Below are positions 576 to 14,857 of a DNA stretch of 64,000 nt, piece by piece. The notes under the pieces are model-generated. The model did not search any database. It was not told the DNA's origin and saw only the letters and a list, made by a program, of their open reading frames with translations. Each line of letters begins with the position of its first letter. The stretch's first letter is position 1. Source of the stretch: Paramagnetospirillum marisnigri (GTDB taxonomy: Bacteria > Pseudomonadota > Alphaproteobacteria > Rhodospirillales > Magnetospirillaceae); NCBI RefSeq assembly GCF_001650715.1, contig NZ_LWQT01000047.1:1-64000 (forward strand). The letters run 5' to 3'. The translations under genes were made by a program, and so were the position numbers.

Positions 576-1538
576 CTAAAGTCCTTCGAACAGGGCGGTG
601 GACAGGTAGCGTTCGGCGAAGGAGGGGATGATCACCACCACGTTCTTGCCCGCCATCTCTGGCCTTGCCGCCACTTCCAAGGACGCGGCCAGGGCCGCGC
701 CCGATGAGATGCCGACCGGGATACCCTCCAGCCGAGCCGATGCGCGGGCGGTCTCGAAGGCGGTCTCGTTCGAAATGGTCAAGACCTCGTCGATGATGCC
801 GCGATCCAGGATCAGCGGCACGAAACCGGCGCCGATACCCTGAATTTTGTGGGGGCCGGGCGGGCCGCCCGACAGGACCGGGCTGGCTTCCGGCTCCACC
901 GCGACGATGCGCAAAACGGGGCGGCGTGGCTTCAGGACCTGGCCGATGCCGGTGAGGGTGCCGCCGGTCCCCACGCCGCCGACGATCACGTCGACCTGTC
1001 CCTGGGTGTCGTTCCAGATTTCCTCGGCGGTGGTGGCGCGATGGATCAAGGGATTGGCGATGTTTTCGAACTGCTGCAGGATCACGGCATCACGTAACTC
1101 CGAGGCCAGTTCGCGGGCGCGGGCCACCGCACCGGTCATTCCCTTGGCCGCCGGGGTCAGGTCCAGCTCGGCTCCCAACAGCAGCAGCATCTTGCGCCGT
1201 TCCAGTGACATGCTGTCCGGCATCACCAGAATCAGGCGATAGCCCTTGACGGCCGCCACGAAGGCCAGGGCGATTCCGGTATTGCCCGAGGTCGGCTCCA
1301 CCAGCACGGTTCTTCCCGGCGTGATCAGTCCATCGGATTCGGCGGCGTCGATCATCGCCTTGCCAATGCGGTCCTTGACCGAAGCCAGCGGGTTGAAGAA
1401 TTCCAGCTTGGCGAAGACGGAGGCCCTGGCCCCCGCATGATGGGCTAGGCGGTTGATGCGCACCAGCGGTGTGTTGCCGATGGTCTGGGTGATGTCGTCA
1501 TAGGTGCGTCCCCGGCCGGGGGTGGTCTGGGCGGTCAT
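576..1538 (-). CDS. cysK: Cysteine synthase (O-acetylserine sulfhydrylase)
   Basis: 320 aa, the usual length for CysK. It forms L-cysteine from O-acetyl-L-serine and sulfide with PLP in the cytoplasm. Visible motifs are the PLP lysine in 'ASVKDRIG' (about residue 55), the substrate loop '[12 protein letters not shown]', and the phosphate-binding '[12 protein letters not shown]'. The start ATG overlaps the stop of the CooS-like gene as ATGA (1535-1538), so the two are translationally coupled and this is the last gene of the six-gene operon. Placing CysK directly after a CooS-like enzyme and an importer suggests that the upstream proteins supply it with reduced sulfur; that is inference. The O-acetylserine donor enzyme CysE is encoded at 13988-14857. 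Confidence 0.93.
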
Positions 1539-3484
1539 GGCATCTCCTCGGAATCGAAAACGGGCCAGCCGAGCCGACCGCGCTTGGCGGCAAGGTCAGC
1601 GACGATGCGCCGTCCCAGTTCGCCGGGATCGGGGATCACCACCATGCCGCCACCCAGGGTGGCGCGGGTGTCGTGCTCGAAGAAGCGCTGGACATTGGCC
1701 GAGCCGCTGACCGGGGCCGGGATGCAGTGATACGAATCCAGGCCCAGCAGGCGGAAGCTCAGGGCCGCGCCGACCCCCTTTTCATTGGACCATTCGGGGC
1801 TGGAAAAGGCGAAGGGCATGGCGGCGATGGGCTGGCCCGCCAGATCGGCCAGGGCGCGGAACAGGCCCGACGCCCGCGCATTGTCCAGGCATTCGCCCAT
1901 ATGCAGGGCGGGCGGCAGGGCTTGCCGGTCCAGCACGCCGCGCAGGGCGGTCCCGGCGCGGTCGCGGCGAGCCGACGAGCAGAATCCCTGCTTCAGAAGT
2001 GGGAACGAGGCGCAGCCATTGGTCAGCACCAGGATGTCGGCGGCCAGCAATGCCTCGGCCACCCGGGTGATGCCGACCTCGTAGGGCACCTTGGGGTTGT
2101 TGCAGCCCACCAGATTGACGATGCCCCTGACCCGGCCGCTCCGCAGCGCCTCGGCCAACTGGTCGAGGCCGCCGAAGGCCTCGGCGATGTTCTCCACCGA
2201 AAAGCCGATCTCGGCCTCGGCGGATACGGCGGGAATGGTGACATTGGCGGCCTGGCGCAGCGGCTGGTTGGCGATGGCCAGTTCGACGATATGCCGCGCC
2301 ATGGCGCGGGTCTGGTCGATATTGGCGTGGCGATGGTCGTAGCCCAGCGCGATGGCGCCGGGCAATCGGGCGGAATCGCTGGTGGTCACCACCTTGGTGT
2401 GGAAGCATTCGGCCACGTCCATGATGCCGGGATAGACGTCCTGGAGATCGGCCACCCACAGGTCGATGGCGCCGGTGGCCAGGATCAGCTCGGCACCCAC
2501 CGCATTGCCCAGGGGATGGACCTCGCCGTGGCGGTAGAGCCCCGAGAGACCCGAGCAGCAGATGCCGTAGAAGCGGATGCCCTCGGCGCCGATCGCCTGA
2601 GCCTTGGCGATCAGGTCGGGATCGTCGCCCGCCTCCAGGATGGCGGTGGCGAGAACCGGGGAATGGCCGTGGATGGCGATATTGACGAAGCCGGGCGCCA
2701 GCGAGCCCACATTGGTGGTGATGGTGGAGCGCTTGGGCAGGCCGTAGAGGATGTCCATGGCGATGGCCGAGCCCGCCACCGAACTCCAGGAAAAGGCCAG
2801 GCCGCAGCGCAGGAACTGCTTCATCAGGTTCTGCCAGTCGCCATCGGTGCCGACACCGGTGCGGTGCAGCGCCTCGAACACCTCCTGCTGCGAGCCGATG
2901 GGCAGGATGTCCATCTCCCGCCACAAGGCGATGCGTTCGGGCGGCGCCATGGCGTGCAGGGTCTTGTGGTCGCCGGGCAGGGTGCGGCCCAGGTCCTCCA
3001 GCAGCACGTCGGCGACCTCGTCGGCCAGGGTCTCGACGCTCTTGGCCTCGTGGAACAGGCCCAGCGCCTTGGCGACGGATTTCAGCTTCTCGACACCCCG
3101 GATGGGCTGGCCCAGTTTGCCCTGGGCGGCGGCTTTCAGGGCCAGAATGACCTCGCGGCCCCGCGCCCCGTGCGAGGCGACGCCCCCCGCCAGCCAGCGC
3201 AGGATGTTGCGGGCCACGATGACGTCGGCATCGGCACCGCAGGCGCCGCGCGGTGCCTTGGCGGTGATCTGGCATGGCCCCATGTGGCAGACCTTGCAGC
3301 ACACCCCGGTCAGTCCGTGGCCGCAGTGGTTCTTCTGCTTGTCGAAGCGGTCGAAGACTGTGGATATGCCTTTCTCGGCGGCAAGGTCGAGCAGGGCGCG
3401 TACCGCCGGGTCGGGGGTGGTCTCGCGCACCTGGGCGCGCGACGGATAGGAAGCGCGGTGGGCTCTCAATTCCTCGGGAGTCAT
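1535..3484 (-). CDS. CooS-like protein: Ni-CODH catalytic-subunit homologue with an altered C-cluster site
   Basis: 649 aa, close to the ~640 aa of Ni,Fe carbon monoxide dehydrogenase. The start at 3484 is preferred over one 7 codons upstream because it has a GAAAGG ribosome site and overlaps the cooC stop as ATGA. The FeS-cluster cysteines near the N-terminus are present (Cys54, 62, 63, 66, 71, 82), as are 'HGHSP' (His272/274), 'GICC' (309-310), 'GCNN' (Cys461), 'NGCAS' (Cys491), 'MGECLDN' (Cys532) and 'SPEWSNEK' (Lys569). The position of the canonical C-cluster cysteine in 'D-x-Q-C' instead reads 'DLQD' (Asp349). The usual histidine-rich 'AHSxHG' segment is reduced to 'SHGARG'. No cooF ferredoxin or cooA regulator is nearby. 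CO oxidation is therefore doubtful; a hybrid-cluster or sulfur-related reaction is possible. Confidence 0.85.
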
Positions 3485-4263
3485 GGGGCACCTTTCATGG
3501 GACACAGGCAGGCCAGCGACAGGACCAGGCGCCGCAACGCCGGGCGGAAGGACTCGGGAATGTCCGGCGGGCGACCGTCCAGGTCGGCGCGACGGATCGA
3601 ATCGTCCCAGGGCAGGCGCGCCAGGATCGGCCAGTCGCCCAGGGCGGCCTGTACCGCTTCCAGATCGGCATCGCCGCGATCACCCACCAGCACGGGAAAG
3701 ACATGGCGGATGCCGAGATCGCGGGCGAGACCCCGGATGGCGAAGGCGGTCTCGACGCTGCGGCTGCCAGGCTGAACCACGGCGAGAACCGCGTCCACCG
3801 CCGCCGCCGTGCCCCGGCTGAGATGCTCCAGCCCGGCCTCGGAATCCACCACCACCGCGTCGGTGGCGCCGGGGATCACCGAGGACAGCACCCGCTTCAG
3901 CACCGCGTTCTCGGCACAATAGCAGCCCTGGCCGCCGCCCTTGTGCCAGCCCAGGGTCAGCAGCGCGTGGCCGCCGCCCCAGGATTGGCGGATTTCCGGC
4001 AAGATGGCGCCGATATCGGGATTGAGCAGCATCATGCCGCCGGGCAGGCCGCCCCGGCCGGACAGGGCATCCACCAGATCGGCCCGGGCCGCCAGAGGAG
4101 TCACCCGGCGGTCTTCGTCCAGGGGCAGGGCCGAGGCCAGATTGGCGTCGGGATCGGCGTCGATGGCCAGCACCCGATAGCCTTCCTCGGCCAGGGTGCG
4201 GGCCAGCAGCCCGGCCAGGGTGGTCTTGCCGACGCCGCCCTTGCCCGCCATGGCGATCTTCAT
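3481..4263 (-). CDS. cooC: CooC-like nickel-insertion ATPase
   Basis: 260 aa, SIMIBI/MinD-class P-loop ATPase. It has a deviant Walker A 'GKGGVGKTT' (7-15), the 'DADPDANL' segment (35-42), and the metal-binding CXC pair 'GCYC' (Cys114 and Cys116) that marks CooC. CooC dimers bind nickel through this pair and help mature the C-cluster of CO dehydrogenase. The gene overlaps the permease stop (4260-4263) and the cooS-like start (3481-3484) by ATGA. A dedicated maturase next to a CooS protein lacking one C-cluster cysteine suggests the enzyme still carries an assembled metal cluster, although that cluster need not contain nickel. Confidence 0.85.
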   Translation of the reverse strand: MKIAMAGKGGVGKTTLAGLLARTLAEEGYRVLAIDADPDANLASALPLDEDRRVTPLAARADLVDALSGRGGLPGGMMLLNPDIGAILPEIRQSWGGGHALLTLGWHKGGGQGCYCAENAVLKRVLSSVIPGATDAVVVDSEAGLEHLSRGTAAAVDAVLAVVQPGSRSVETAFAIRGLARDLGIRHVFPVLVGDRGDADLEAVQAALGDWPILARLPWDDSIRRADLDGRPPDIPESFRPALRRLVLSLACLCPMKGAP

Positions 4264-5021
4264 GCCGTCCTCCGCCAGGAAAAGCGGCGGATCAGCCCCA
4301 GGCAGACCGCGTCGAGGCCGAAGCCGATGATTCCGATGATGATGACCATGGCGGCCAGCTTGTCGTAGGACAAGGTGTCGCGGGCGTCGTTGATGGCATA
4401 GCCCAGCCCCGAGGTGACCCCCAGGAACTCGGCCGGGACCAGCACGATCCAGGCGACGCCCAGGGCGAGGCGGATACCGGTCAGGATATCGGTGGCGATG
4501 GCGGGCACGATCAGGGTGACCAGGACATGGCGCGGACCGGCGCCGAGATTGCGGGCCACCTTGAACCATTGCGGGTACAGCTTGCGCAGTCCGGCGGCGG
4601 TGGCAAAGGTGACCGGCCAGATTGCGGCGGCGGCGATCAGGAAGACGATGGCGCCATCCCAGGTGGCGAAGGCCATCACCGCCACCGGCATCCAGGCCAG
4701 GGGGCTGATCATGCGCAGGAACTGGAACGGCAGATGGGTCAGGGCTTCCAGGGTCTTGAAATGGCCGATGGCGATGCCCGTGGGCACGCCCAGTGCCACC
4801 GCCCAGGCCAGTCCCTGGCCGATGCGGATCAGGCTGGGCTGGATGGCCCGCCACAACTCGCCGCCGCCCAGCATGGCCAGCAGGGCGGCGAAGGCCGGGC
4901 CGGGAGCTAGTCCGGCGAAGGCGGCGGTGCGCGGATTCGCCGCCGCCCCCAGGCTCGCCAGATGCCACAGGGCGACCAGCAGGGCGATGCCGATTAATGC
5001 GTGGGCGAGGCCTCGCCTCAT
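4260..5021 (-). CDS. ABC transporter permease, NitT/TauT/SsuC type
   Basis: 253 aa with about six membrane segments, starting with 'ALIGIALLVALWHLA' near the N-terminus. The cytoplasmic coupling loop carries the EAA-like signature 'ARNLGAGPRHVLVTLIVPA'. It belongs to the permease family that imports nitrate, sulfonates, taurine, cyanate or thiamine precursors. Both ends overlap neighbours by ATGA (with the binding protein at 5018-5021 and with cooC at 4260-4263). The start is fixed by this coupling; longer reading frames upstream run into the binding-protein gene. The substrate is not readable from sequence; the operon with cysK favours a sulfur compound. Confidence 0.88.
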   Translation of the reverse strand: MRRGLAHALIGIALLVALWHLASLGAAANPRTAAFAGLAPGPAFAALLAMLGGGELWRAIQPSLIRIGQGLAWAVALGVPTGIAIGHFKTLEALTHLPFQFLRMISPLAWMPVAVMAFATWDGAIVFLIAAAAIWPVTFATAAGLRKLYPQWFKVARNLGAGPRHVLVTLIVPAIATDILTGIRLALGVAWIVLVPAEFLGVTSGLGYAINDARDTLSYDKLAAMVIIIGIIGFGLDAVCLGLIRRFSWRRTA

Positions 5022-6211
5022 ACCACCACCTGCTCCACCCGGTTGAAGGGATCGCCCTTGTTGACGCTGGGGTCGTCCTTCCATTCGGGATACTTGACCA
5101 GCGCCTTCTTGACGAAGTCGGTGGTGACCAGATCCTTGACCACGAAATCGGGGTCCAACTTGTCCAGGAAGGTCTTGTCGCCGCTGACCACGGTCTTGGT
5201 CATGGCCTCGACGATCAGCTTGGTGGCGGACGGATAGGGCCAGGGCTGGAAGTCGATGCGGTCGTTGCCCCATTCCTTCTTGTGGCGGTTGGCGCCAAGC
5301 TTGTCGTAGTCGGGGTCGTCGTAATGGGTGACGGCGCGTTCGACCAATGCGGCGGGCAGCGGAATATAGCCCTTGCCGTCCTGGCTGATCAGCCGCGCCA
5401 CCTCCTTCTTGTTCTTGGACGCATAGATCTGGGCCTTGACCACGGCATTGACCACCTTCTGCGACCATTCCGGCCGCTTGACGGTGTCGGCCTCGTGCAT
5501 GGCGACAACGCAGCAGGGATGGTTCTTCCAGATGTCGCCGGTGAAGCGGAGGATGCGCCCGCCCGCCTTCAGCTCGCCCAGGGCGTTGAAGGGCTCGGCG
5601 ACGATATAGCCGTCGATCTTGCCCGCCGCCAGGGCCGGGGGCATCTCGGGCGGTTGCAGCACCTGGAGATTGACCTCGGTCTTGGCCAGGGGCTCGCCCG
5701 CCGCCTTGATGACCGGGGTCAGACCGGCCGAACGGATGCCGATCTGCAGCACGATGTTATGCATGGAATACCAGAACGGCACCGCGATCTGGCGGCCGCC
5801 CAGATCGGCGAAGGAGGTGATGCCGGTATTGCTGCCCACGACCAGCCCCGAGCCGTTGGTATGGGCCCAGGCGACGATCTTGACCGGGATGTTGTTGTTG
5901 TAGCGCATCCATACCGGGATGGGCTTGAGCAGGTGGACCAGATTGAACTTGCCCGCCGCGAAGCCCTCGGCCAGGGGCGCCCAGCCCCGGATCAGCACCG
6001 GCGGCTCGGTCTTCAGGCCTTCTTCCTCGAAGGCGCCCAGGGCATGGGCCACCAGCAGGGCGGTGGCGTCGGTGATGGGCAGGTGGCCGATGCGCACCAC
6101 CTCGTCCTCGGCGGCGCGGGCCAGGCCGCCCTTGGCGGCCATCACGGCGGCGAGGCCTCCGGCGGCCATGAAGTCCAGCGAGCGGCGGCGGCTGATGGGG
6201 GTGTCGAACAT
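5018..6211 (-). CDS. ABC transporter substrate-binding protein, NrtA/SsuA/TauA family, Tat-exported
   Basis: 397 aa. The N-terminus has a twin-arginine signal: 'SRRRSLDFM' (7-15), a hydrophobic Ala/Gly stretch, and a probable cleavage near 'LARA'. Next come family features: 'RIGHLPITDATALLVAHALG', where the bound ligand lies in a cleft, then 'GSNTGITSFADLGGRQIAVPF', and a long C-terminal lobe. Length is at the upper end, like NrtA-type nitrate and bicarbonate binders rather than the ~320 aa SsuA. The ATPase gene ends 15 bp upstream and the permease overlaps the stop. Tat export suggests folding, perhaps with a ligand or metal, before secretion. Substrate unknown. Confidence 0.85.
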   Translation of the reverse strand: MFDTPISRRRSLDFMAAGGLAAVMAAKGGLARAAEDEVVRIGHLPITDATALLVAHALGAFEEEGLKTEPPVLIRGWAPLAEGFAAGKFNLVHLLKPIPVWMRYNNNIPVKIVAWAHTNGSGLVVGSNTGITSFADLGGRQIAVPFWYSMHNIVLQIGIRSAGLTPVIKAAGEPLAKTEVNLQVLQPPEMPPALAAGKIDGYIVAEPFNALGELKAGGRILRFTGDIWKNHPCCVVAMHEADTVKRPEWSQKVVNAVVKAQIYASKNKKEVARLISQDGKGYIPLPAALVERAVTHYDDPDYDKLGANRHKKEWGNDRIDFQPWPYPSATKLIVEAMTKTVVSGDKTFLDKLDPDFVVKDLVTTDFVKKALVKYPEWKDDPSVNKGDPFNRVEQVVV

Positions 6212-6226
6212 GAAGGATGTCCTCCG

Positions 6227-7039
6227 TCAGGATTTGAAGGCGGGGAGGGGGAAAAGCGAAAGAAAGTGGCGGGCAGGTGCTGTGTCGGGTGCGGAATGAG
6301 CGGGCAGCGGTTGCGCCGCCTCGAACGGTTCCAGCACCTGGGCGCGCAGCGCGGCACGGTCGGTGCAGGTTAAGGCGATGTCGGCCACCACCCGACCCGG
6401 CTTGGGCGCCATGACCACGGCCCGCTCGGCCATGATCAGCGCCTCGTCCACGTCATGGGTGACGATGACCAGGGTCAGGCCCAATTGGGCGGCTATGGCG
6501 CGCACCTCTTCCTGGAGGCCGGAGCGGGTGAACGGGTCGAGGGCGGAAAAGGGCTCGTCCAGCAGCAGGACTTCCGGCCTGGTTGCCAGGGATCGGGCCA
6601 GGGCGACCCGCTGCTGCTGGCCGCCGGACAGTTGCTGGACATTGTCCTCGCCATGCTCCGAGAGATGGACCAGGGCCAGCAATTCCTCGACCCGCTCGCG
6701 GATCTCGGGTTTGGGGCGATGGGCGTAGCGCAGGCCCAAGGCGATATTCTCGGCGGCGCTCATCCAGGGGAAGAGCGACGGCGATTGGAACATCATGTTC
6801 CACTTGGCCGATGGCTTTCCGACCGGCTGGCCGCTGATGTGGACGCTGCCCGCGGTGGGGTGGAGCAGGCCGGCAATGATGTGCAAAAGGGTGGATTTGC
6901 CGCAGCCGCTGCGCCCGACCAGCGCCAGGGCTTGACCGCCATCCACCGTCAGATTGATCTCGGACAGGATGGTTGGGCCATGGCGGCTGAAGCGGTGGCA
7001 AAGGCCGGTGAGGTCGATTTTTCCAGGTGGGGCGCTCAT
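6227..7039 (-). CDS. ABC transporter ATP-binding protein, NitT/TauT family
   Basis: 270 aa from the preferred ATG at 7039 (a GGAG lies upstream; a start 15 codons earlier would crowd the promoter element at 7088). Motifs: Walker A 'GRSGCGKST' (42-50), Q-loop 'MMFQSPSLFPW', signature 'LSGGQQQR', Walker B 'LLLDEPFSALD', switch histidine in 'IVTHDVDEAL'. This is the first gene of the six-gene operon and drives import together with the downstream binding protein and permease. The C-terminal ~35 residues beyond the ATPase core are Pro/Ala rich and lack a recognisable regulatory domain. Confidence 0.9.
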   Translation of the reverse strand: MSAPPGKIDLTGLCHRFSRHGPTILSEINLTVDGGQALALVGRSGCGKSTLLHIIAGLLHPTAGSVHISGQPVGKPSAKWNMMFQSPSLFPWMSAAENIALGLRYAHRPKPEIRERVEELLALVHLSEHGEDNVQQLSGGQQQRVALARSLATRPEVLLLDEPFSALDPFTRSGLQEEVRAIAAQLGLTLVIVTHDVDEALIMAERAVVMAPKPGRVVADIALTCTDRAALRAQVLEPFEAAQPLPAHSAPDTAPARHFLSLFPLPAFKS

Positions 7040-7087
7040 GGTCGCGCTGTCGCTCCGTTGTGCTGAAAACGGGTATAGCGCCACTGC

Positions 7088-7123: not shown

Positions 7124-7259
7124 GACTCCGTTTCGGGCTTTGCTAGTGTGGTCCCGGAGAGCGCCGATTTGAGGCATCAGCTTGCGGGCGCTTAACAAAT
7201 GCGGCTAAAGCGGTTGGCTTTTCGTCCAGCCGGGACCCCGCCTCCTGGAGGTGAAGACC

Positions 7260-7487
7260 ATGACCCATTCCAAGCGTGTATCCCCCGGCCCTCAACTGGT
7301 CGCCAAGCGGGCCTTCGATCCCTGGCGCCATGGCGAGCCGAGTTTGGCGGAGGTGATGAACGACCCCATCGTTCATCTGCTGATGCGCCGCGACGGGCTG
7401 GTCGCCGACCAGGTCTGGCCGGTGGTCAGGGAGGCGCAAAGCCGCCTCGACAGGCCTCTTTGCTCTGGTGCCGCAAGGGCGGCCTGA
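7260..7487 (+). CDS. Small conserved-looking protein of unknown function, 75 aa
   Basis: ATG 7260 is preceded by a strong GGAGG eight bases upstream, better than the GTG at 7251. The protein is soluble and reads like a compact helical domain: 'AKRAFDPWRHGEPSLAEVM' followed by 'DPIVHLLMRRDG' and 'WPVVREAQSRL'. I recall small proteobacterial proteins with the same 'FDPW...LA.VM.DPIV..LM.RDG' pattern but no assigned function. Its stop TGA overlaps the ATG of the XRE-cupin gene (TGATG, 7485-7489), so the two are cotranslated. It may be a regulatory partner of that protein. Confidence 0.7.
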   Translation: MTHSKRVSPGPQLVAKRAFDPWRHGEPSLAEVMNDPIVHLLMRRDGLVADQVWPVVREAQSRLDRPLCSGAARAA

Positions 7488-8101
7488 TGCCTGGGTCCGG
7501 TTCTCCGCAGGTGGTGGCGCTGCATGCCCCGGCTTCGGTTGACGGCGAGGAAATCCAGCAGGTCGTGGGTGATAACCTGCGGCGCATCCGTATCCGCAAA
7601 GGTCTGTCGCTGGAGCGCCTCGCTAAATCGTCCGGTGTCAGCCGAGCCATGCTTGGTCAGGTCGAGCTTGGCCGTTCAGCGCCCACCATCAGCGTCCTGT
7701 GGAAGATCGCCCGGGCTCTTGATGTGCCGCTCACGGCCTTCACCTCCCCTGATGGAGGCGGCAAGGCCATGGTTTTCAGGGCGCATCGCACCAAGGTCCT
7801 GGCGTCCTTGAACGGGAGATTTTCCAGTCGGGCCCTCTTTCCCACCGAATCGTCCCAGCGGGTGGAATTCTACGAATTGAGGATTGCCCCTCATACCGTC
7901 GAGGAGGCGGATGGGCATCTTCCCGGCACGATCGAGAATATGGTTGTCGCCCAGGGGAGCTTGGAGATTGAGACTGGTGGCGATCGCTATCTTCTGGCGA
8001 AGGGCGACTCGATTCAGTTCCTCGCCGACCAGCCTCATCTCTACCGCAATGCCAGTTCGAGCGAGGCCCTGATCTATTTGGTGATGATTTATGCCGGATG
8101 A
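7487..8101 (+). CDS. XRE-family transcriptional regulator with C-terminal cupin domain
   Basis: 204 aa. An XRE helix-turn-helix covers about residues 27-82 ('LRRIRIRKGLSLERLAKSSG' then 'VSRAMLGQVELGRSAPTISVLWKIARAL'). A small cupin beta-barrel covers about 120-204, with 'GTIENMVVAQGSLEIETGGDRYLL' and 'GDSIQFLADQPHLYRN'. This architecture is typical of one-component regulators sensing a small ligand, often in amino-acid, polyamine or sulfur metabolism. The start is set by the TGATG overlap with the preceding gene; the reading frame is open further upstream but without a ribosome site. Divergent position relative to the ABC-cooS-cysK operon makes it the prime candidate regulator of the sulfur island. 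Confidence 0.88.
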   Translation: MPGSGSPQVVALHAPASVDGEEIQQVVGDNLRRIRIRKGLSLERLAKSSGVSRAMLGQVELGRSAPTISVLWKIARALDVPLTAFTSPDGGGKAMVFRAHRTKVLASLNGRFSSRALFPTESSQRVEFYELRIAPHTVEEADGHLPGTIENMVVAQGSLEIETGGDRYLLAKGDSIQFLADQPHLYRNASSSEALIYLVMIYAG

Positions 8102-8115
8102 GGCTGTCGTGGCGG

Positions 8116-8802
8116 CTATGCCGCCTGTTCCGCAGTCTGGACGCGGGCGAAGTGGTACATGCGGCAGGGCTGGCGAAACAGGATGCGCCCATCATCCTCG
8201 ACGATGCCGTGATGGGCGAAGGCTTCTCGCACCGCGCGTTCATTGATCTGGAAGGCCTTGGCGCGGGCAGGGCTGACGGTGATGATCCGGCGGCGGAAGT
8301 CGTCGAACGTATCGAACCGCTCCACATGGAGGTAGCTGCCCGCGATGATGGGCTTCAAACCCAAGGTCCAGGCCGATGAAATGGCTTCCATGGCCTTGGC
8401 GCGGGCCTGGGTCTGGTCGTCGATCAGTTTCAGAAGTTCGAAATAAGAGCCTTCCGAAAACGGCTCCACGATATGCAGCCGTCCGCCCGGACGCAGAACC
8501 CGATGCGCCTCGACCAGCGCATCTTTCTGGGACTCGGCGGGAATGTGGTGAAAGCTGAAGATGTAAACCACAAGGTCGATGCTGGAATTCTCCAGGGAAA
8601 GAGTGCCACTGCTGCCGGGCAGGAAGCTGATGTTTTCTCCATCGGGACCTGGAGTTTGATCTCCGGTGGGAATGCCGATGACCTTGGCCTTGTGTTCAGC
8701 CAGCAGACGGACCAGGGAGCCATCCCGGCAGCCCATATCCACCGCCATCGCTCCGGGCAGGTCCACGAAGTGCTCAAGATATTTGATATGAACATTGTCC
8801 AT
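8116..8802 (-). CDS. Class I SAM-dependent methyltransferase
   Basis: 228 aa from ATG 8802, which has an AAAGGAGG site five bases upstream. The SAM-binding motif I is 'AVDMGCRDGSLVRLL', with the acidic residue and Gly-rich turn. Motifs further on include 'IDLVVYIFSFHHIP' and 'EAHRVLRPGGRLHIVEP', typical of Methyltransf_11. The substrate cannot be predicted. It lies 83 bp after the cysteine desulfurase gene in the same direction and may be the last gene of the encapsulin operon. It converges with the XRE-cupin gene, whose stop is 14 bp away. Confidence 0.85.
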   Translation of the reverse strand: MDNVHIKYLEHFVDLPGAMAVDMGCRDGSLVRLLAEHKAKVIGIPTGDQTPGPDGENISFLPGSSGTLSLENSSIDLVVYIFSFHHIPAESQKDALVEAHRVLRPGGRLHIVEPFSEGSYFELLKLIDDQTQARAKAMEAISSAWTLGLKPIIAGSYLHVERFDTFDDFRRRIITVSPARAKAFQINERAVREAFAHHGIVEDDGRILFRQPCRMYHFARVQTAEQAA

Positions 8803-8885
8803 GGCGGCCTCCTTTCCACGGCTTCGTGGCAACTGATATCTGAACCCATCATGGCCGTCTCAGCCGGGGGCCGCCCTGAGCCGCC

Positions 8886-10775
8886 TCATCGCTGGCCGCG
8901 TCCCGACTGGATGCGCAGCAGCGCGTTCACCAGGGCGTCCAGATCCTCGAAGGTGTTGTAGAAGGCCAGTGACGGACGCACCGTTGCTTCCAGGCCGAAA
9001 CGGCGCAGGATGGGCTGGGCGCAATGGTGGCCCGATCGCACGGCAATGCCTTCGCGGTCCAGTGCCTTGCCCACATCCTCGGTGCGGCAGCCATCCAGCA
9101 CGAAGGACAGCACCCCCGCCTTGTCCTTGGCGGTGCCGATCAGCCTGAGCCCGGGCACACTCAACAGCCCCTCGGTGCCATAAACCAGCAACTCCTGCTC
9201 CCAGGCGCTGATGGTGGCCATGCCGATGCTTTCCACATAGTCGATGGCGGCGCCAAGCCCAACCGCGTCGGCGATATTGCCGGTTCCCGCCTCGAAGCGG
9301 GCGGGGGCGGGCTGATAGACGGTCTTCTCGAAGGTCACGTCGGCGATCATGTTGCCGCCGCCCTGCCAGGGCGGCATCTGGTCCAGGATGGCCTTCTTAC
9401 CGAACACGGCGCCGATGCCGGTGGGGGCGAAGACCTTGTGGCCGGAAAAGACGTAGAAGTCGCAATCCAGGGCCTGGACGTCCACCGGCATGTGGGAGAC
9501 CGCCTGGGCGCCGTCCACCAGAACCACCGCGCCGTGGCGATGGGCCATGGCGGTCATCTCGGCCGCCGGGGTGACGGTGCCCAGCGCGTTGGACACCTGG
9601 GTCAGGGAGACGAGGCGGGTACGCGGTCCCAGCAGCTTCTCGTATTCCTCCAGGATGATCTGGCCGCTGTCATCCACCGGAGCAACCCGCAGCCGGGCGC
9701 CGGTCTGGGCGCATAACTGCTGCCAGGGCACGATATTGGCGTGGTGCTCCAGCCAAGTGACGACGATCTCGTCGCCGTCCTTGACGTTGCGCGCTCCCCA
9801 GGCCTTGGCGATCAGGTTGATGCCCTCGGTGGCGCCGCGCACGAAGATGATTTCCTCGGTCGAGCCGGCATTGACGAAGCGCCGCGTCTTCTCGCGCGCC
9901 GCCTCGTAGGCGTCGGTGGAGCGCGCCGCCAGGGCATGGGCGGCGCGGTGGATATTGGAGTTCTCATGCTCATAGAAACGGCTCAGGCGTTCGATCACCT
10001 GGCGCGGCTTCTGGGTGGTGGCGGCGTTGTCGAGCCAGATCAGCGGCTTGCCGTGCACCTGCTGCTGCAGGATGGGGAAGTCGCGTTTGACGGCATGGGC
10101 ATCGAACGCCCCCGTGCGCGCGCTGGTCCCCCGGAGGTCGGGCACCAGCTCGGGGCGCAGCTCGATGCCGAGGATGCCGGGATCGACCGAGGGCGAGCGG
10201 GGGGCGGCGGGCTCGGCCCGGCTGGAGACGCCCTGGGCCTCGTCCAGGAAGTACAGCGGCGCGGACGGTGATGACGCGGGCAGGGCGAAGGGCTCGGGTG
10301 GTCCGGGAAGGTTCGGCAAGGCCGTCGGCGGGACTTCAGGGGTCCCATTGGGAATGGCGGGGCCGGAGGCATGATCCGGCGGCACCAAGGAGATGGCCGC
10401 GCCCAGCAGGTTGGGAATGACCCGCAGATCGGCCTCGCCCGGAACGGGAACCGGCGGCGCCGAGGTGGGATTGACGGGCGGCGCGGCGGGGGCGGCCGCC
10501 AGCGGCCCCACCTGCGGCAGGGCGGGCACGGTGGTGATCGTGCCCACCGAGGGTGGCGCCGGAACGCCGGGGGGAACGAGGCCACCGCTGGGGGCGGCCT
10601 CGATCAGCGGAACCGAAGGCGGGGCGACGCCGATGCTGGGGGCTGATTGACCCCCTCCCGATTGCCCGGGTGCCGCCTGGAAGAAGGCATTGGCCATCTG
10701 GGCGATCAGGCGGGCATCGGGCGCCCCGGCGAATCCCGCCGGTTCCGACAGGTCGGTGGGGAAGCCGCGCGTCAT
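8886..10775 (-). CDS. Cysteine desulfurase (SufS/CsdA type) with long disordered N-terminus; predicted encapsulin cargo
   Basis: 629 aa versus ~405 for SufS. Residues 1 to ~222 are rich in Pro, Ala, Gly and Ser, with recurring 'PPSV', 'VPAPP' and 'LP.LP' patches and no predicted fold. The catalytic domain (~223-629) begins 'AFDAHAVKRDFPIL'. It has the PLP lysine Lys447 in 'SGHKVFAPTG' and the sulfur-accepting Cys585 in 'RSGHHCAQP'. It takes sulfur from L-cysteine, giving alanine and a persulfide. The start overlaps the encapsulin stop as ATGA (10772-10775). Family 2A encapsulins are known to load cysteine desulfurases through such unstructured N-terminal extensions; that this one is loaded is inferred from the pairing. 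Confidence 0.92.
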   Translation of the reverse strand: MTRGFPTDLSEPAGFAGAPDARLIAQMANAFFQAAPGQSGGGQSAPSIGVAPPSVPLIEAAPSGGLVPPGVPAPPSVGTITTVPALPQVGPLAAAPAAPPVNPTSAPPVPVPGEADLRVIPNLLGAAISLVPPDHASGPAIPNGTPEVPPTALPNLPGPPEPFALPASSPSAPLYFLDEAQGVSSRAEPAAPRSPSVDPGILGIELRPELVPDLRGTSARTGAFDAHAVKRDFPILQQQVHGKPLIWLDNAATTQKPRQVIERLSRFYEHENSNIHRAAHALAARSTDAYEAAREKTRRFVNAGSTEEIIFVRGATEGINLIAKAWGARNVKDGDEIVVTWLEHHANIVPWQQLCAQTGARLRVAPVDDSGQIILEEYEKLLGPRTRLVSLTQVSNALGTVTPAAEMTAMAHRHGAVVLVDGAQAVSHMPVDVQALDCDFYVFSGHKVFAPTGIGAVFGKKAILDQMPPWQGGGNMIADVTFEKTVYQPAPARFEAGTGNIADAVGLGAAIDYVESIGMATISAWEQELLVYGTEGLLSVPGLRLIGTAKDKAGVLSFVLDGCRTEDVGKALDREGIAVRSGHHCAQPILRRFGLEATVRPSLAFYNTFEDLDALVNALLRIQSGRGQR

Positions 10776-11725
10776 GCGAACTTCTTATCGTAGTCGAAGT
10801 AGTGGTCGACCTCGACATCCTCAAGCACCGCGATGGCGTCCTCGGTGAGGATGGCGGCCGAGCAGTACAGCGAGATCAGATAGGACGCGATGGCCTTGCG
10901 GTTGATGCCCATGAAGCGCACCGACAGCGACGGTGAGACCTCGCCGGGCACACCCGGCTGGAACAGGCCGACCACGCCCTGGCGCTTCTCGCCGGTGCGC
11001 ACCAGCAAGATGTTGGTCTTGCCGGTCTTCTTGCCTTCGGCCGAGATGGTCAGCTTGTCGCTGGGCACCAGCGGCAGGCCGCGCCAGGTCAGGAACGGGG
11101 TGCCGAACAGGTTGACTGTGGGCGGCGGCACGCCGCGCTTGGTGCATTCGCGGCCAAAAGCGGCGATGGCCTTTGGGTGGGCCAGGAAGAAGGACGGCTC
11201 CTTCCACACCTTGGAGATCAGCTCGTCCAGATCGTCGGGAGTGGGGGCGCCCTTGCGGGTCTTGATGCGCTGGGACTTGGCGGTGTTGGTCAATAGGCCG
11301 TATTCGGCGTTGTTGATCAGCTCGAACTCCTGCTTTTCCTTCACCTTCTCGATCAACAGGCGCAGTTGCTCCTGGATCTGGTCGATGGGGTGGGAATAGA
11401 GGTCCGAGACGCGGGTCTGGACGTCGAGCACCGTGGTCACCGCGTTCAGGGAATATTCCCGAGGGTTTTCCTCGTAGGGGACATAGCTTTCCGGCAGGTC
11501 GGCGTCATTGGTGGGGCTGCACTTGACGTCGGAACTGGTGCCGATGGCGCCTTCCTTGACCCGGTTCAGGCGATAGATGCCGGCTTCCACCGGCGTCCAG
11601 GGCAGGAACGAGACCAGCCAGCGCGGCGTGATGCCCGACCATTGGGCGCGGGTCTTGGTGGCGTTGGCAAGTTGGCGGGCCGCCTGCTCGTTCAGGGTGC
11701 GGCGAACCTCGGTATCCTCGGACAT
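10772..11725 (-). CDS. Family 2A encapsulin shell protein (SrpI-like)
   Basis: 317 aa, near the ~308 aa of cyanobacterial SrpI. The N-terminal arm has 'LNEQAARQLANATKT'. Next come the family-typical 'TPRWLVSFLPWTPVEAGIYR', the extended loop with 'YVPYEENPREYSL', a long helix with 'LRLLIEKVKEKQEFELIN', and the C-terminal 'SPSLSVRFMGINRKAIASY'. These proteins adopt an HK97 phage-capsid fold and self-assemble into icosahedral compartments in the cytoplasm. The family is linked to sulfur metabolism and reported to hold elemental sulfur. AAGGAGA lies seven bases before the ATG. It precedes and overlaps its predicted cargo. Identification rests on recalled family sequence features plus the desulfurase partner. 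Confidence 0.88.
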   Translation of the reverse strand: MSEDTEVRRTLNEQAARQLANATKTRAQWSGITPRWLVSFLPWTPVEAGIYRLNRVKEGAIGTSSDVKCSPTNDADLPESYVPYEENPREYSLNAVTTVLDVQTRVSDLYSHPIDQIQEQLRLLIEKVKEKQEFELINNAEYGLLTNTAKSQRIKTRKGAPTPDDLDELISKVWKEPSFFLAHPKAIAAFGRECTKRGVPPPTVNLFGTPFLTWRGLPLVPSDKLTISAEGKKTGKTNILLVRTGEKRQGVVGLFQPGVPGEVSPSLSVRFMGINRKAIASYLISLYCSAAILTEDAIAVLEDVEVDHYFDYDKKFA

Positions 11726-12652: not shown

Positions 12653-13930
12653 ATGACTCACTTCGATCGCCGTTCCTTCCTGGCCCTGGCCGGTGCCGCC
12701 AGTCTGGCCTCGCTCACCGGCGCCTGCGCCTCCGGCCCGTCCGGCACCGGCCCGCGCGTGCTGGTGGTCGGCGGCGGCTTCGGCGGCGCCACCGCCGCCA
12801 AGTATCTGCGCCTGCTCGATCCCAGCCTGCGGGTGACTCTGGTGGAGCGCAACCAGCGCTTCGTCACCTGCCCGTTCAGCAATGCCGTCATCGCCGGGCT
12901 GCGCGACATCTCCACCATCACCCACGGCTATGACGGGCTGCGCGCCCTGGGCGTCCAGGTGATCCATGCCGAGGTCGCCGCCGTGGACGTGGCCGCCAAA
13001 TCGGTGGTGCTGGCCGATGGCGACAAGCTGTCCTATGACCGGCTGGTGCTGTCGCCCGGCATCGACTTCAAGTGGAACACGCCGGGCTATGACCAGGCGG
13101 CCAGCGAACTGGTGCCGCACGCCTGGAAGGCGGGGGCGCAGACCCTGCTGCTGCGCCGCCAGCTGGAAGCGCTGGAGGATGGCGGCCTAGTGGTCATCAC
13201 CGTTCCCGGCAATCCCTATCGCTGCCCGCCCGGCCCCTATGAGCGCGCCAGCCTGATCGCCCATTACCTCAAGATCAGGAAGCCCAAATCCAAGCTGCTG
13301 GTGCTGGATTCCAAGGATGCCTTCTCCAAGCAGGGGCTGTTCCAGGAAGGCTGGGACAAGCTGTACAAGGGGGTGCTGGAATGGGTGCCCGCCGCCAAGG
13401 ACGGCAAGATCGTCGCCGTCGACGCCAAGACCCGCACGGTGGAAAGCGACCTCGGCACCAAGCACAAGGCGGCGGTGCTCAACGTCATTCCCCAGCAGAC
13501 GGCCGGCAAGCTTGCCATCGATGCCGGGCTGACCGATGCCAGCGGCTGGGTGCCGGTGGTACCCCGGACCTTCCAGTCCACCAAGGCCCCCGATATCCAT
13601 GTGATCGGCGATGCCACCGTGGCGGCGCCCATGCCCAAGTCGGGCTTTGTCGCCAATGCCCAGGCCAAGGTCGCCGCCGCCGCTGTGGTGGCGTCCATGC
13701 GCGGGGTGGACTCGCCCGAGCCGCTGTGGATGAATACCTGCTACTCGCTGCTATCGCCGGTCTACGGCATCACCGTGGCCGGGGTCTATCGGGTGATCGA
13801 CGGCAAGCTGGGCGAGGTGCCCAATTCCGGCGGCGTCAGCCCCAAGGGCGCCACCGAGCAGTTCCGCGCCCTGGAAGCGGCCTATGCGGAAAGCTGGTAC
13901 GCCAATATCAGCAAGGATATCTGGTCGTAA
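12653..13930 (+). CDS. fccB: Sulfide dehydrogenase (flavocytochrome c), FAD subunit
   Basis: 425 aa. A Tat signal 'DRRSFLALAGAASLASLTGA' leads into the FAD-binding 'VLVVGGGFGGATAAKYLR'. Three cysteine sites fit the family: 'RFVTCPFSN', 'YRCPPGPYERA', used for redox chemistry on sulfide, and 'MNTCYSL' in the C-terminal FCSD domain. The enzyme oxidises sulfide to sulfur or polysulfide in the periplasm and reduces the partner cytochrome. A GGGGGAA ribosome site precedes the ATG. Its location between the encapsulin operon and cysE links sulfide oxidation to sulfur storage and assimilation in this region. Confidence 0.9.
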   Translation: MTHFDRRSFLALAGAASLASLTGACASGPSGTGPRVLVVGGGFGGATAAKYLRLLDPSLRVTLVERNQRFVTCPFSNAVIAGLRDISTITHGYDGLRALGVQVIHAEVAAVDVAAKSVVLADGDKLSYDRLVLSPGIDFKWNTPGYDQAASELVPHAWKAGAQTLLLRRQLEALEDGGLVVITVPGNPYRCPPGPYERASLIAHYLKIRKPKSKLLVLDSKDAFSKQGLFQEGWDKLYKGVLEWVPAAKDGKIVAVDAKTRTVESDLGTKHKAAVLNVIPQQTAGKLAIDAGLTDASGWVPVVPRTFQSTKAPDIHVIGDATVAAPMPKSGFVANAQAKVAAAAVVASMRGVDSPEPLWMNTCYSLLSPVYGITVAGVYRVIDGKLGEVPNSGGVSPKGATEQFRALEAAYAESWYANISKDIWS

Positions 13931-13987: not shown

Positions 13988-14857
13988 TCAGATGGAGTAG
14001 TCGAAGCTCTCGTAGGACAGCGCCTTCAGGATTTCCTCCTTGCTGCGCAAGGCTTCGGGATCGTTGGTGGTCCGGATGGTGCGGGCGGGAATTCCGGCAA
14101 CGGTAGAATTTGGGTCCACCGCCTTCAGCACCACCGAACCGGCGGCGATGCGGGAATAGGCGCCGACCTCGATATTGCCCAGGATCTTGGCCCCGGCCCC
14201 GACAATGGTACCCTTGCGCACCTTGGGGTGGCGGTCGCCGCTTTCCTTGCCGGTGCCGCCCAGCGTGACGTTTTGCAGCAGCGAGACATCGTCTTCCACC
14301 ACGGCGGTCTCGCCCACCACCAGCCCGGTGGCGTGGTCGAGGAAGATGCCCTTGCCGAAGCGGGCGGCGGGGTGGATGTCGGTCTGGAACACATCCGAGG
14401 ACCGGCTTTGCAGGTAGAGCGCGAAGTCACGCTCGCCATTGCCCCACAGCCAGTGGGCCAGCCGGTGGGTCTGGACCGCGTGGAAGCCCTTGAAATAGAG
14501 GAAGGGCTCGATGAAGCGCTCGGTGGCGGGATCGCGCTCGACCACCGCGGCGATGTCGGCGCGCAGTGCCTCACCCAGGCCGGGATCGGCCTTGGCGGCG
14601 CGGTCAAAGGTCTCGGCCAGCAGCGGCAACGATACCAGATCGTTCTTTAGGCGCGATGAGACGCGGTAGAACACCGCAGCCTCGAACGAGGGCTGGTTCA
14701 GCACGGACTCAATGAACAGCGAGGCCAATTGAGGGGCCTTGCCGAGGGCTTCTTCTGCCTCGCGTCGCAACTCTGCCCAGACGGTATCGGCGAAATGGGT
14801 TAGGTCGCGGGCTTGGTCGGTGATGAGGGTCAGGCGACCCGGAGCCGGTCGAGCCAT
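13988..14857 (-). CDS. cysE: Serine O-acetyltransferase
   Basis: 289 aa. The N-terminal half is helical, as in CysE. The C-terminal left-handed beta-helix contains 'DIHPAARFGKGIFLDHATG', with the catalytic histidine, and 'VVGETAVVEDDVSLLQNVTLGGTGK', then 'HPKVRKGTIVGAGAKILG'. It makes O-acetylserine from serine and acetyl-CoA, the second substrate of CysK at 576-1538. AGGAA precedes the ATG at seven bases. The C-terminus ends 'SYESFDYSI'; CysK binding uses a terminal isoleucine in the known cysteine synthase complex, so complex formation is plausible. It carries its own version of the shared promoter element. Confidence 0.93.
   Translation of the reverse strand: MARPAPGRLTLITDQARDLTHFADTVWAELRREAEEALGKAPQLASLFIESVLNQPSFEAAVFYRVSSRLKNDLVSLPLLAETFDRAAKADPGLGEALRADIAAVVERDPATERFIEPFLYFKGFHAVQTHRLAHWLWGNGERDFALYLQSRSSDVFQTDIHPAARFGKGIFLDHATGLVVGETAVVEDDVSLLQNVTLGGTGKESGDRHPKVRKGTIVGAGAKILGNIEVGAYSRIAAGSVVLKAVDPNSTVAGIPARTIRTTNDPEALRSKEEILKALSYESFDYSI

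Follow-up and report, generated by a model that had tools for sequence, protein, structure and literature searches.

A clade B carbon monoxide dehydrogenase homologue in an operon with an ABC transporter and cysteine synthase: a possible role in sulfur assimilation

What does a nickel carbon monoxide dehydrogenase (CODH) homologue do when one of its C-cluster cysteines is an aspartate and its gene runs directly into that of a cysteine synthase? The question is raised by positions 1 to 64,000 of contig NZ_LWQT01000047.1 of Paramagnetospirillum marisnigri (64,000 nucleotides, hereafter the window), in which a cooS homologue of clade B lies at 1535..3484 on the minus strand. Its open reading frame (ORF) runs from an ATG at 3484 to a stop at 1535 and encodes 649 amino acids, with only a shadow frame on the plus strand. 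The product matches PF03063 with 446.8 bits and only just reaches the TIGR01702 cut-off (478.6 against 478 bits). The gene belongs to a six-gene operon on the minus strand that comprises, in order of transcription, the ATPase of an ATP-binding cassette (ABC) transporter (6227..7084, PF00005), its solute-binding protein (5018..6211), its permease (4260..5021), a CooC-like ATPase (3481..4263), cooS and cysK (576..1538). ATGA overlaps join the binding protein to the permease, the permease to cooC, cooC to cooS, and cooS to cysK, which encodes cysteine synthase A (TIGR01139, 424.3 bits; cut-off 350.95). We suggest that clade-B CODH homologues may work in sulfur assimilation, splitting an imported sulfur compound without O2 and releasing sulfide, a reading that we consider quite possible while stopping short of calling it probable.

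The initial annotation held that aspartate replaces a C-cluster cysteine in this protein, and both alignment to solved structures and conservation across the clade confirmed it. Asp349, within the sequence DLQD, aligns with the cysteine of the D-x-Q-C motif in the three solved CODHs compared; this position corresponds to Cys333 of CODH-II. Of 230 relatives recovered from genome contigs, the best 80, at 54-80% identity, all have Asp349 (80 of 80). An enlarged set of 94 clade-B rows was made up of these best 80, 13 sequences from Clostridia and the window protein. At the second C-cluster site it has Asp in 92 rows and Glu in two, whereas 60 of 60 other CODHs have Cys. The remaining ligands of the canonical set of one His and five Cys are kept in the window protein (His272, Cys310, Cys461, Cys491 and Cys532), and only the second cysteine, as Asp349, departs from it. 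The acid-base residues H105 and K569 are present in all 94 clade-B rows, and the D-cluster is of type II, Cys-(X)7-13-Cys-Cys, formed by Cys54, Cys62 and Cys63. The His-rich segment had also been described as altered, to SHGARG; its second His is indeed Arg, as in 73 of the 94 rows, but the base His, H105, is retained throughout. We also asked whether another cysteine fills the site. Among the 94 clade-B and 60 other CODH rows no compensating cysteine is specific to clade B: Cys502 is found in 94/94 clade-B rows yet also in 18/60 of the other CODHs; as for Cys227 and Cys587, neither is invariant. Replacement by another cysteine was rejected on these grounds.

A FastTree phylogeny of 155 rows was built without the Asp349 column, from our own rows only and without published clade-B reference sequences. 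The clade has full local support in it, and the acid at the site arises once. Because the carboxylate is fixed in the clade and its origin is a single change on the tree, Asp349 is not explained by chance, sequencing error or decay. One locus, L109, encodes a protein that is 40% identical, sits on a long branch, has Cys at the site and joins adjacent to clade B, a kind of join that the program warns can be false. To judge by record titles, the carriers among the best 80 relatives include rumen-type Selenomonas, clostridia, relatives of Geobacter, and green and purple sulfur bacteria, from several phyla. The gene is present in one copy in its own genome. Among 60 genomes, the own genome and its relatives, a cooS match was found in three (the own genome, a congener at 80% identity and, at 37%, another member of the family), and the trait is therefore patchy.

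The observation holds, but it is not a first: the substitution itself is already in print. In the sections of Inoue 2019 (PMC6344411) available to us, the defining feature of groups B-1 to B-3 of clade B is an acidic residue (Asp or Glu) in place of the second C-cluster cysteine, His and Lys being retained; group B-4 has Cys at that position. The window protein fits group B-2, with which it shares Asp at the second cysteine, the kept His and Lys, a type II D-cluster, the absence of a His-rich extension and an adjacent NitT/TauT transporter. Beyond what is described for that group, the window has cooC and a cysK that is translationally coupled to cooS. The same sections report the NitT/TauT transporter with clade B and propose that it imports metal, and the phrase "cysteine synthase" is absent from the text of the paper.

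The transporter is a regular companion of the clade-B genes. Neighbourhood counts were made over 93 clade-B loci (the best 80 of 230 relatives and 13 from Clostridia), with the window and L109 counted apart, and over 60 other CODH loci as controls. A gene for the binding protein lies within 8 kb of cooS in 88 of the 93 clade-B loci, and all 60 controls lack one at that distance. Among 391 Clostridia, the binding protein was found in 21 genomes, all of them within the 22 that carry a cooS of the clade-B kind (two fragments and the genome of L109 being counted), and in the Clostridia the transporter is thus dedicated to clade-B cooS. This near-perfect co-occurrence suggests that the enzyme handles the transporter's cargo. 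The permease is of the NitT/TauT type (PF00528, best NCBIfam models below cut-off) and carries an ATGA overlap at both ends; the binding protein is NMT1_2/SsuA-like (PF13379). An alignment of the binding protein holds 86 of 95 possible rows, the other nine having no frame of more than 700 bases, and in it Cys233-Cys234 and His117 are invariant (86/86) and His151 is found in 81/86. Its solved relatives include the NrtC/CmpC domains, 3un6, NrtA, CmpA and SsuA, and the ligands that appear in the names of such relatives are nitrate, bicarbonate, sulfonates and taurine. The Firmicute form closely resembles 3un6 of S. aureus (E 1.7e-67), in which the Cys-Cys pair is kept. No sulfonate, taurine or nitrate transporter model scored above its cut-off (SsuA_fam 90.5 against 163.5, ntrB 118.6 against 209.05, SaoX 54.8 against 300). 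As a separate observation, the binding-protein frames at L030:9940-10928 and L032:9970-10947 are broken in these assemblies. Selenocysteine was considered for both and rejected: reading TGA as U gives no open frame, and they look like frameshifts.

Sulfur genes recur among the neighbours. The 60 controls consisted of 14 loci from the same genomes (14 of 16 rows, two fragments from genome G046 being left out) and 46 from Clostridia (46 of 72 rows, mostly those 8 kb or more from the start of their contig, in output order, four more being already in the set). ORFs were called on length alone, several neighbour clusters are shadow frames, and the small clusters 34, 35 and 43 to 46 were left unannotated. 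After the transporter, clustering of the neighbours yielded an OAH/OAS-sulfhydrylase-like (OAHS) family, CysK, desulfurases, serine acetyltransferase (SAT)-like proteins, parts of sulfate transporters and LarE. A CysK or OAHS-like gene lies within 8 kb of cooS in 34 of the 93 clade-B loci and in 2 of the 60 other CODH loci (Fisher p 4e-7). The difference was reached although many clade-B loci are cut by contig ends and fewer of them have full flanks (49/93 against 52/60; the flanks sum to 1200 kb and 909 kb, respectively). Within the evenly drawn Clostridia only, the counts are 9/19 and 0/50 (p 1.6e-6). Profile models in 50 genomes gave a similar picture within 10 kb of clade-B cooS, with 7 CysK observed against 0.68 expected and 9 OAHS against 0.67, an excess of about tenfold over the expectation from the genome-wide number of these genes in this hand-picked set. 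An encapsulin-type desulfurase or a relative lies within 8 kb in 8/93 clade-B loci and 0/60 controls (p 0.016). Same-strand chains link cooS to sulfur genes in 17 of the 93 loci (one via LarE alone) and also in L109; no such chain was seen among the 60 controls. The two controls that do have a sulfide-fixing gene nearby, L086 and L087, come from genomes (G005 and G045) that carry a clade-B cooS elsewhere. A gene for a LarE-type sulfur transferase was also noted near clade-B cooS in L009, L010, L032, L040 and L099, the model having been checked for L040 only; near the controls LarE was found in 0/60.

The initial annotation had asked for a phylogeny to see whether the aspartate is conserved in a clade linked to cysK. 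Asp is fixed across the whole clade and is not confined to members beside cysK. In L109, moreover, the gene order is cysK-cooS-binding protein-permease-ATPase, and because this Cys-bearing locus also adjoins cysK, the sulfur link does not depend on Asp and may be older than it. When loci are labelled on the tree of clade B by whether they have sulfur neighbours, 22 changes are required (shuffled labels give a mean of 28.9 and a minimum of 22), which indicates that these neighbours come and go. In L058, an S-adenosylmethionine (SAM) riboswitch at 3581-3681 precedes the cooS ATG by about 210 bases; none was found in the eight control loci scanned.

The transporter also occurs without any CODH. 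Among 299 Pseudomonadota, 12 genomes besides that of P. marisnigri carry the binding protein at an identity of at least 49%; a CODH match was found in none of them with a query that does find the gene of P. marisnigri. The 13 binding-protein loci of these genomes all keep the Cys-Cys pair, and their neighbours include a cluster of acyl-CoA-dehydrogenase-like flavoproteins (9/13) and a CMD/peroxidase-like cluster (8/13), labels that come from scanning one member per cluster. In L160-L168, the transporter with its Cys-Cys binding protein is accompanied by an acyl-CoA-dehydrogenase-like gene and, in 8 of 9 loci, by a CMD-like gene. In L156 and L157 the companions are an OsmC-type gene and a flavoprotein-related gene (41-44% identical to one in L017, with no Pfam match), and L156 further carries a SAT-like gene as well as encapsulin 2A together with its desulfurase. 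In L158 and L159 no permease or ATPase of these transporter clusters was found. Some loci hold both kinds of partner: flavoprotein, CMD and cooS stand together in L004 (Rhodocyclus tenuis) and L006, and OsmC and the flavoprotein stand with cooS in L017 and L021. An AraC-Cupin_6 regulator was confirmed in CODH-free L160 and in cooS-bearing L004. This exchange of partners, CooS in some loci and flavoprotein with CMD or OsmC in others, speaks for a sulfur compound as the cargo and against a metal destined for CODH. Our guess is that the flavoprotein could be an O2-dependent desulfurase, and CooS would then be the transporter's partner for life without O2.

The supply of nickel bears on what the altered site contains. 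The CooC-like ATPase matches Pfam CbiA, with no NCBIfam model above its cut-off, and has a C-x-C motif (GCYC), to which a role with nickel is ascribed. Across the 94 clade-B rows, 72 have only a His-rich tail, 11 only CooC, none both and 11 neither, and among the 60 control CODHs CooC is present in 22 and a tail in two, counts that are not corrected for kinship. The window protein is of the second kind, with CooC and without the tail. This either-or pattern suggests that the clade-B site still receives nickel through one of two routes, and it tells against reading a missing maturase as a sign that the metal is gone.

These observations can be joined in a single scheme. Operon, fixed carboxylate, kept base residues, dedicated transporter and recurrent sulfur-gene context are observed. 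The transporter would import a small sulfur-bearing compound, for which thiocyanate, compounds like carbonyl sulfide (COS) or sulfonate-like compounds are our guesses. CODH binds triatomic molecules resembling CO2 and reacts with COS, and in cubane clusters an iron with an Asp ligand is labile and open to further ligands. At the Asp-ligated C-cluster, which probably still bears nickel, iron and nickel may bind the sulfur compound. The compound could then be split anaerobically, either by two electrons delivered via clusters B and D or by attack of an iron-bound hydroxide, and sulfide would be freed. The co-translated CysK would fix this sulfide into cysteine, and the encapsulated cysteine desulfurase encoded nearby may store sulfur or pass it on. 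The initial annotation had suggested a repurposed CODH acting on a sulfur or a nitrogen compound. Gene context favors the sulfur half of that suggestion; a nitrogen substrate or a link to nitrogenase was rejected, as no nitrogen-oxide, nitrogenase or other nitrogen gene family is among the annotated neighbour clusters. A wider version, which we find rather doubtful, would make clade B a group of nickel-iron desulfurising enzymes working with the Cys-Cys transporter, the anaerobic counterpart of the flavoprotein and OsmC/CMD module; the change from Cys to Asp would then have come later, as an adjustment within a system that was serving sulfur while the site was still Cys, as in L109.

Several points weigh against a sulfur role. 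The evidence for it is gene context, from which metal, substrate and reaction are all conjectured, and in 59 of the 93 clade-B loci neither a CysK nor an OAHS-like gene lies within 8 kb. Neither sulfate-transporter genes (6/93 against 2/60, p 0.33) nor SAT (5/93 against 0/60, p 0.08) are significantly enriched at that distance. The panel of labels behind the 8-kb and chain counts was built from the neighbours of clade B, the 50 genomes of the profile test were picked from 80 after their neighbourhoods were known, and the scanned member of the OAHS cluster falls just below the TIGR01326 cut-off (468.6 against 495.1). The riboswitch of L058 is the single case in 43 clade-B loci scanned, and inspection by eye shows another hairpin, with a run of T, between the riboswitch and cooS. 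The Cys-Cys pair and His117 of the binding protein would suit a metal too. As for the flavoprotein, specific models either scored far below their cut-offs or gave no match, with one member per cluster scanned for L160-L168.

If the transporter instead imports nickel or another metal, as Inoue 2019 (PMC6344411) proposes in the sections available, the enzyme could be a CODH-like protein acting on CO or CO2. This is unlikely in our view. In its favor are the presence of CooC or a His-rich tail in 83 of the 94 clade-B rows and the metal-compatible residues of the binding protein, the Firmicute form of which lies near a protein, 3un6, that the same source calls metal-binding. Against it are the 12 CODH-free genomes, where the usual companions of the same binding protein are a flavoprotein gene and one for CMD or OsmC, the annotated neighbour clusters, which include sulfur genes and none for nickel, and the best binding-protein model, which is of the SsuA type, though below cut-off. 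A different cluster altogether, an Fe/S/O hybrid cluster like that of CooS-V or HCP that reduces hydroxylamine, NO or a similar oxidant, seems to us improbable. CooS-V of Carboxydothermus hydrogenoformans, the analogy first drawn for the window protein, shares with it the CODH fold and a carboxylate in place of one C-cluster cysteine, and HCP belongs to the same superfamily (PF03063). The analogy proved weak, however: in the available sections of PMC9311411 the Glu of CooS-V stands at the first cysteine, Cys295, whereas the window protein has its Asp at the second, and group D-1, to which CooS-V belongs, has Tyr in place of the base His (PMC6344411, likewise in part). The equivalent of Cys295, Cys310, is kept in 94/94 clade-B rows, as is the base His. 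The HCP model TIGR01703 gives the cooS product 21.2 bits against a cut-off of 360.8, and neither the frequent tail or CooC nor the absence of nitrogen-oxide gene families from the annotated clusters fits such an enzyme.

It is about equally improbable that the sulfur neighbours reflect shared control only, with the enzyme providing low-potential electrons or protecting Fe-S clusters under sulfur limitation and never acting on the cargo. The varying set and order of the sulfur genes would agree with this, as would the number of changes that their label needs on the tree, and against it stands the near-perfect pairing of cooS with the binding protein among Clostridia. The idea of a decayed, non-catalytic CODH can point to the one changed ligand and to a 2026 eLife survey (PMC13056359), the available part of which raises degenerated function. 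With Asp or Glu, the other ligands and the base residues invariant in 94 sequences, drawn by record title from several phyla, we regard decay as very improbable.

The arrangement proposed here works like a known one. In the SsuABCD and TauABCD systems for sulfonate import and desulfonation, an ABC transporter feeds a desulfurising enzyme that supplies cysteine synthesis, and the window operon likewise combines a related ABC transporter with a proposed desulfurising enzyme. It differs in that its six genes include neither SsuD nor TauD, a CODH-like enzyme taking their place, and in the invariant Cys-Cys pair of its binding protein. With the canonical CooS of clades E and F, the window protein shares the remaining cluster and base residues and a CooC in the operon. 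The canonical enzymes have Cys at the site, and their context is hydrogenase, ferredoxin or acetyl-CoA synthase in the sections of Inoue 2019 (PMC6344411) available.

Relative to the open-licence literature that we searched, a sulfur role for clade B is new. No previous description of clade-B proteins as sulfur enzymes was found there, an absence that is weak for a search of this scope, and no paper on cysteine regulation was found that names this cooS gene. The accessible portions of surveys from 2019 to 2026 list the transporter neighbours of clade B and leave the function of the enzyme open; a 2026 marine survey (PMC13240472) calls its role unknown. A 2024 human-gut survey (PMC11338639) gives cysteine synthase as a minor context of cooS, mainly in Megasphaera, with no sulfur proposal in the portion available. 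Clade B is a branch of an ancient enzyme family, and a sulfur role, if true, would provide it with a physiology that can be tested, would mean that sulfur can also be acquired without O2 by a nickel-iron route, and would caution against taking clade-B genes as evidence of CO use.

Other genes of the window lie upstream of the operon. A divergent gene at 7199..8101 on the plus strand encodes a helix-turn-helix (HTH)-cupin protein (HTH_3 and Cupin_2) that could possibly regulate the operon; no relative was found at E 1e-40 among the ORFs of the first 81 loci. It is followed by a methyltransferase gene (8116-8832, Pfam scan). Two more genes were recognized by eye: one resembling flavocytochrome c sulfide dehydrogenase at 12653-13930 and, from its translation, a serine acetyltransferase-like gene at 13988..14857 on the minus strand. 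The CysK/CysM family has two further matches elsewhere in the genome, one of them above cut-off. Between 8886 and 11725 the window holds a family 2A encapsulin system with both models above cut-off, consisting of a cysteine desulfurase cargo (8886..10775, minus strand; NF041166, 863.3 bits, cut-off 800) and the shell (10772..11725, minus strand; NF041162, 520.1 bits, cut-off 380; PF19307). Shell and cargo genes are as described for this family (PMC8049743, PMC8346489); unlike there, the set lies near a CODH homologue and an ABC transporter, terms absent from both papers. Genes for the encapsulin 2A shell and its desulfurase are also found close to clade-B cooS at three other loci (L005, L008 and L042) and, in CODH-free L156, next to the same transporter.

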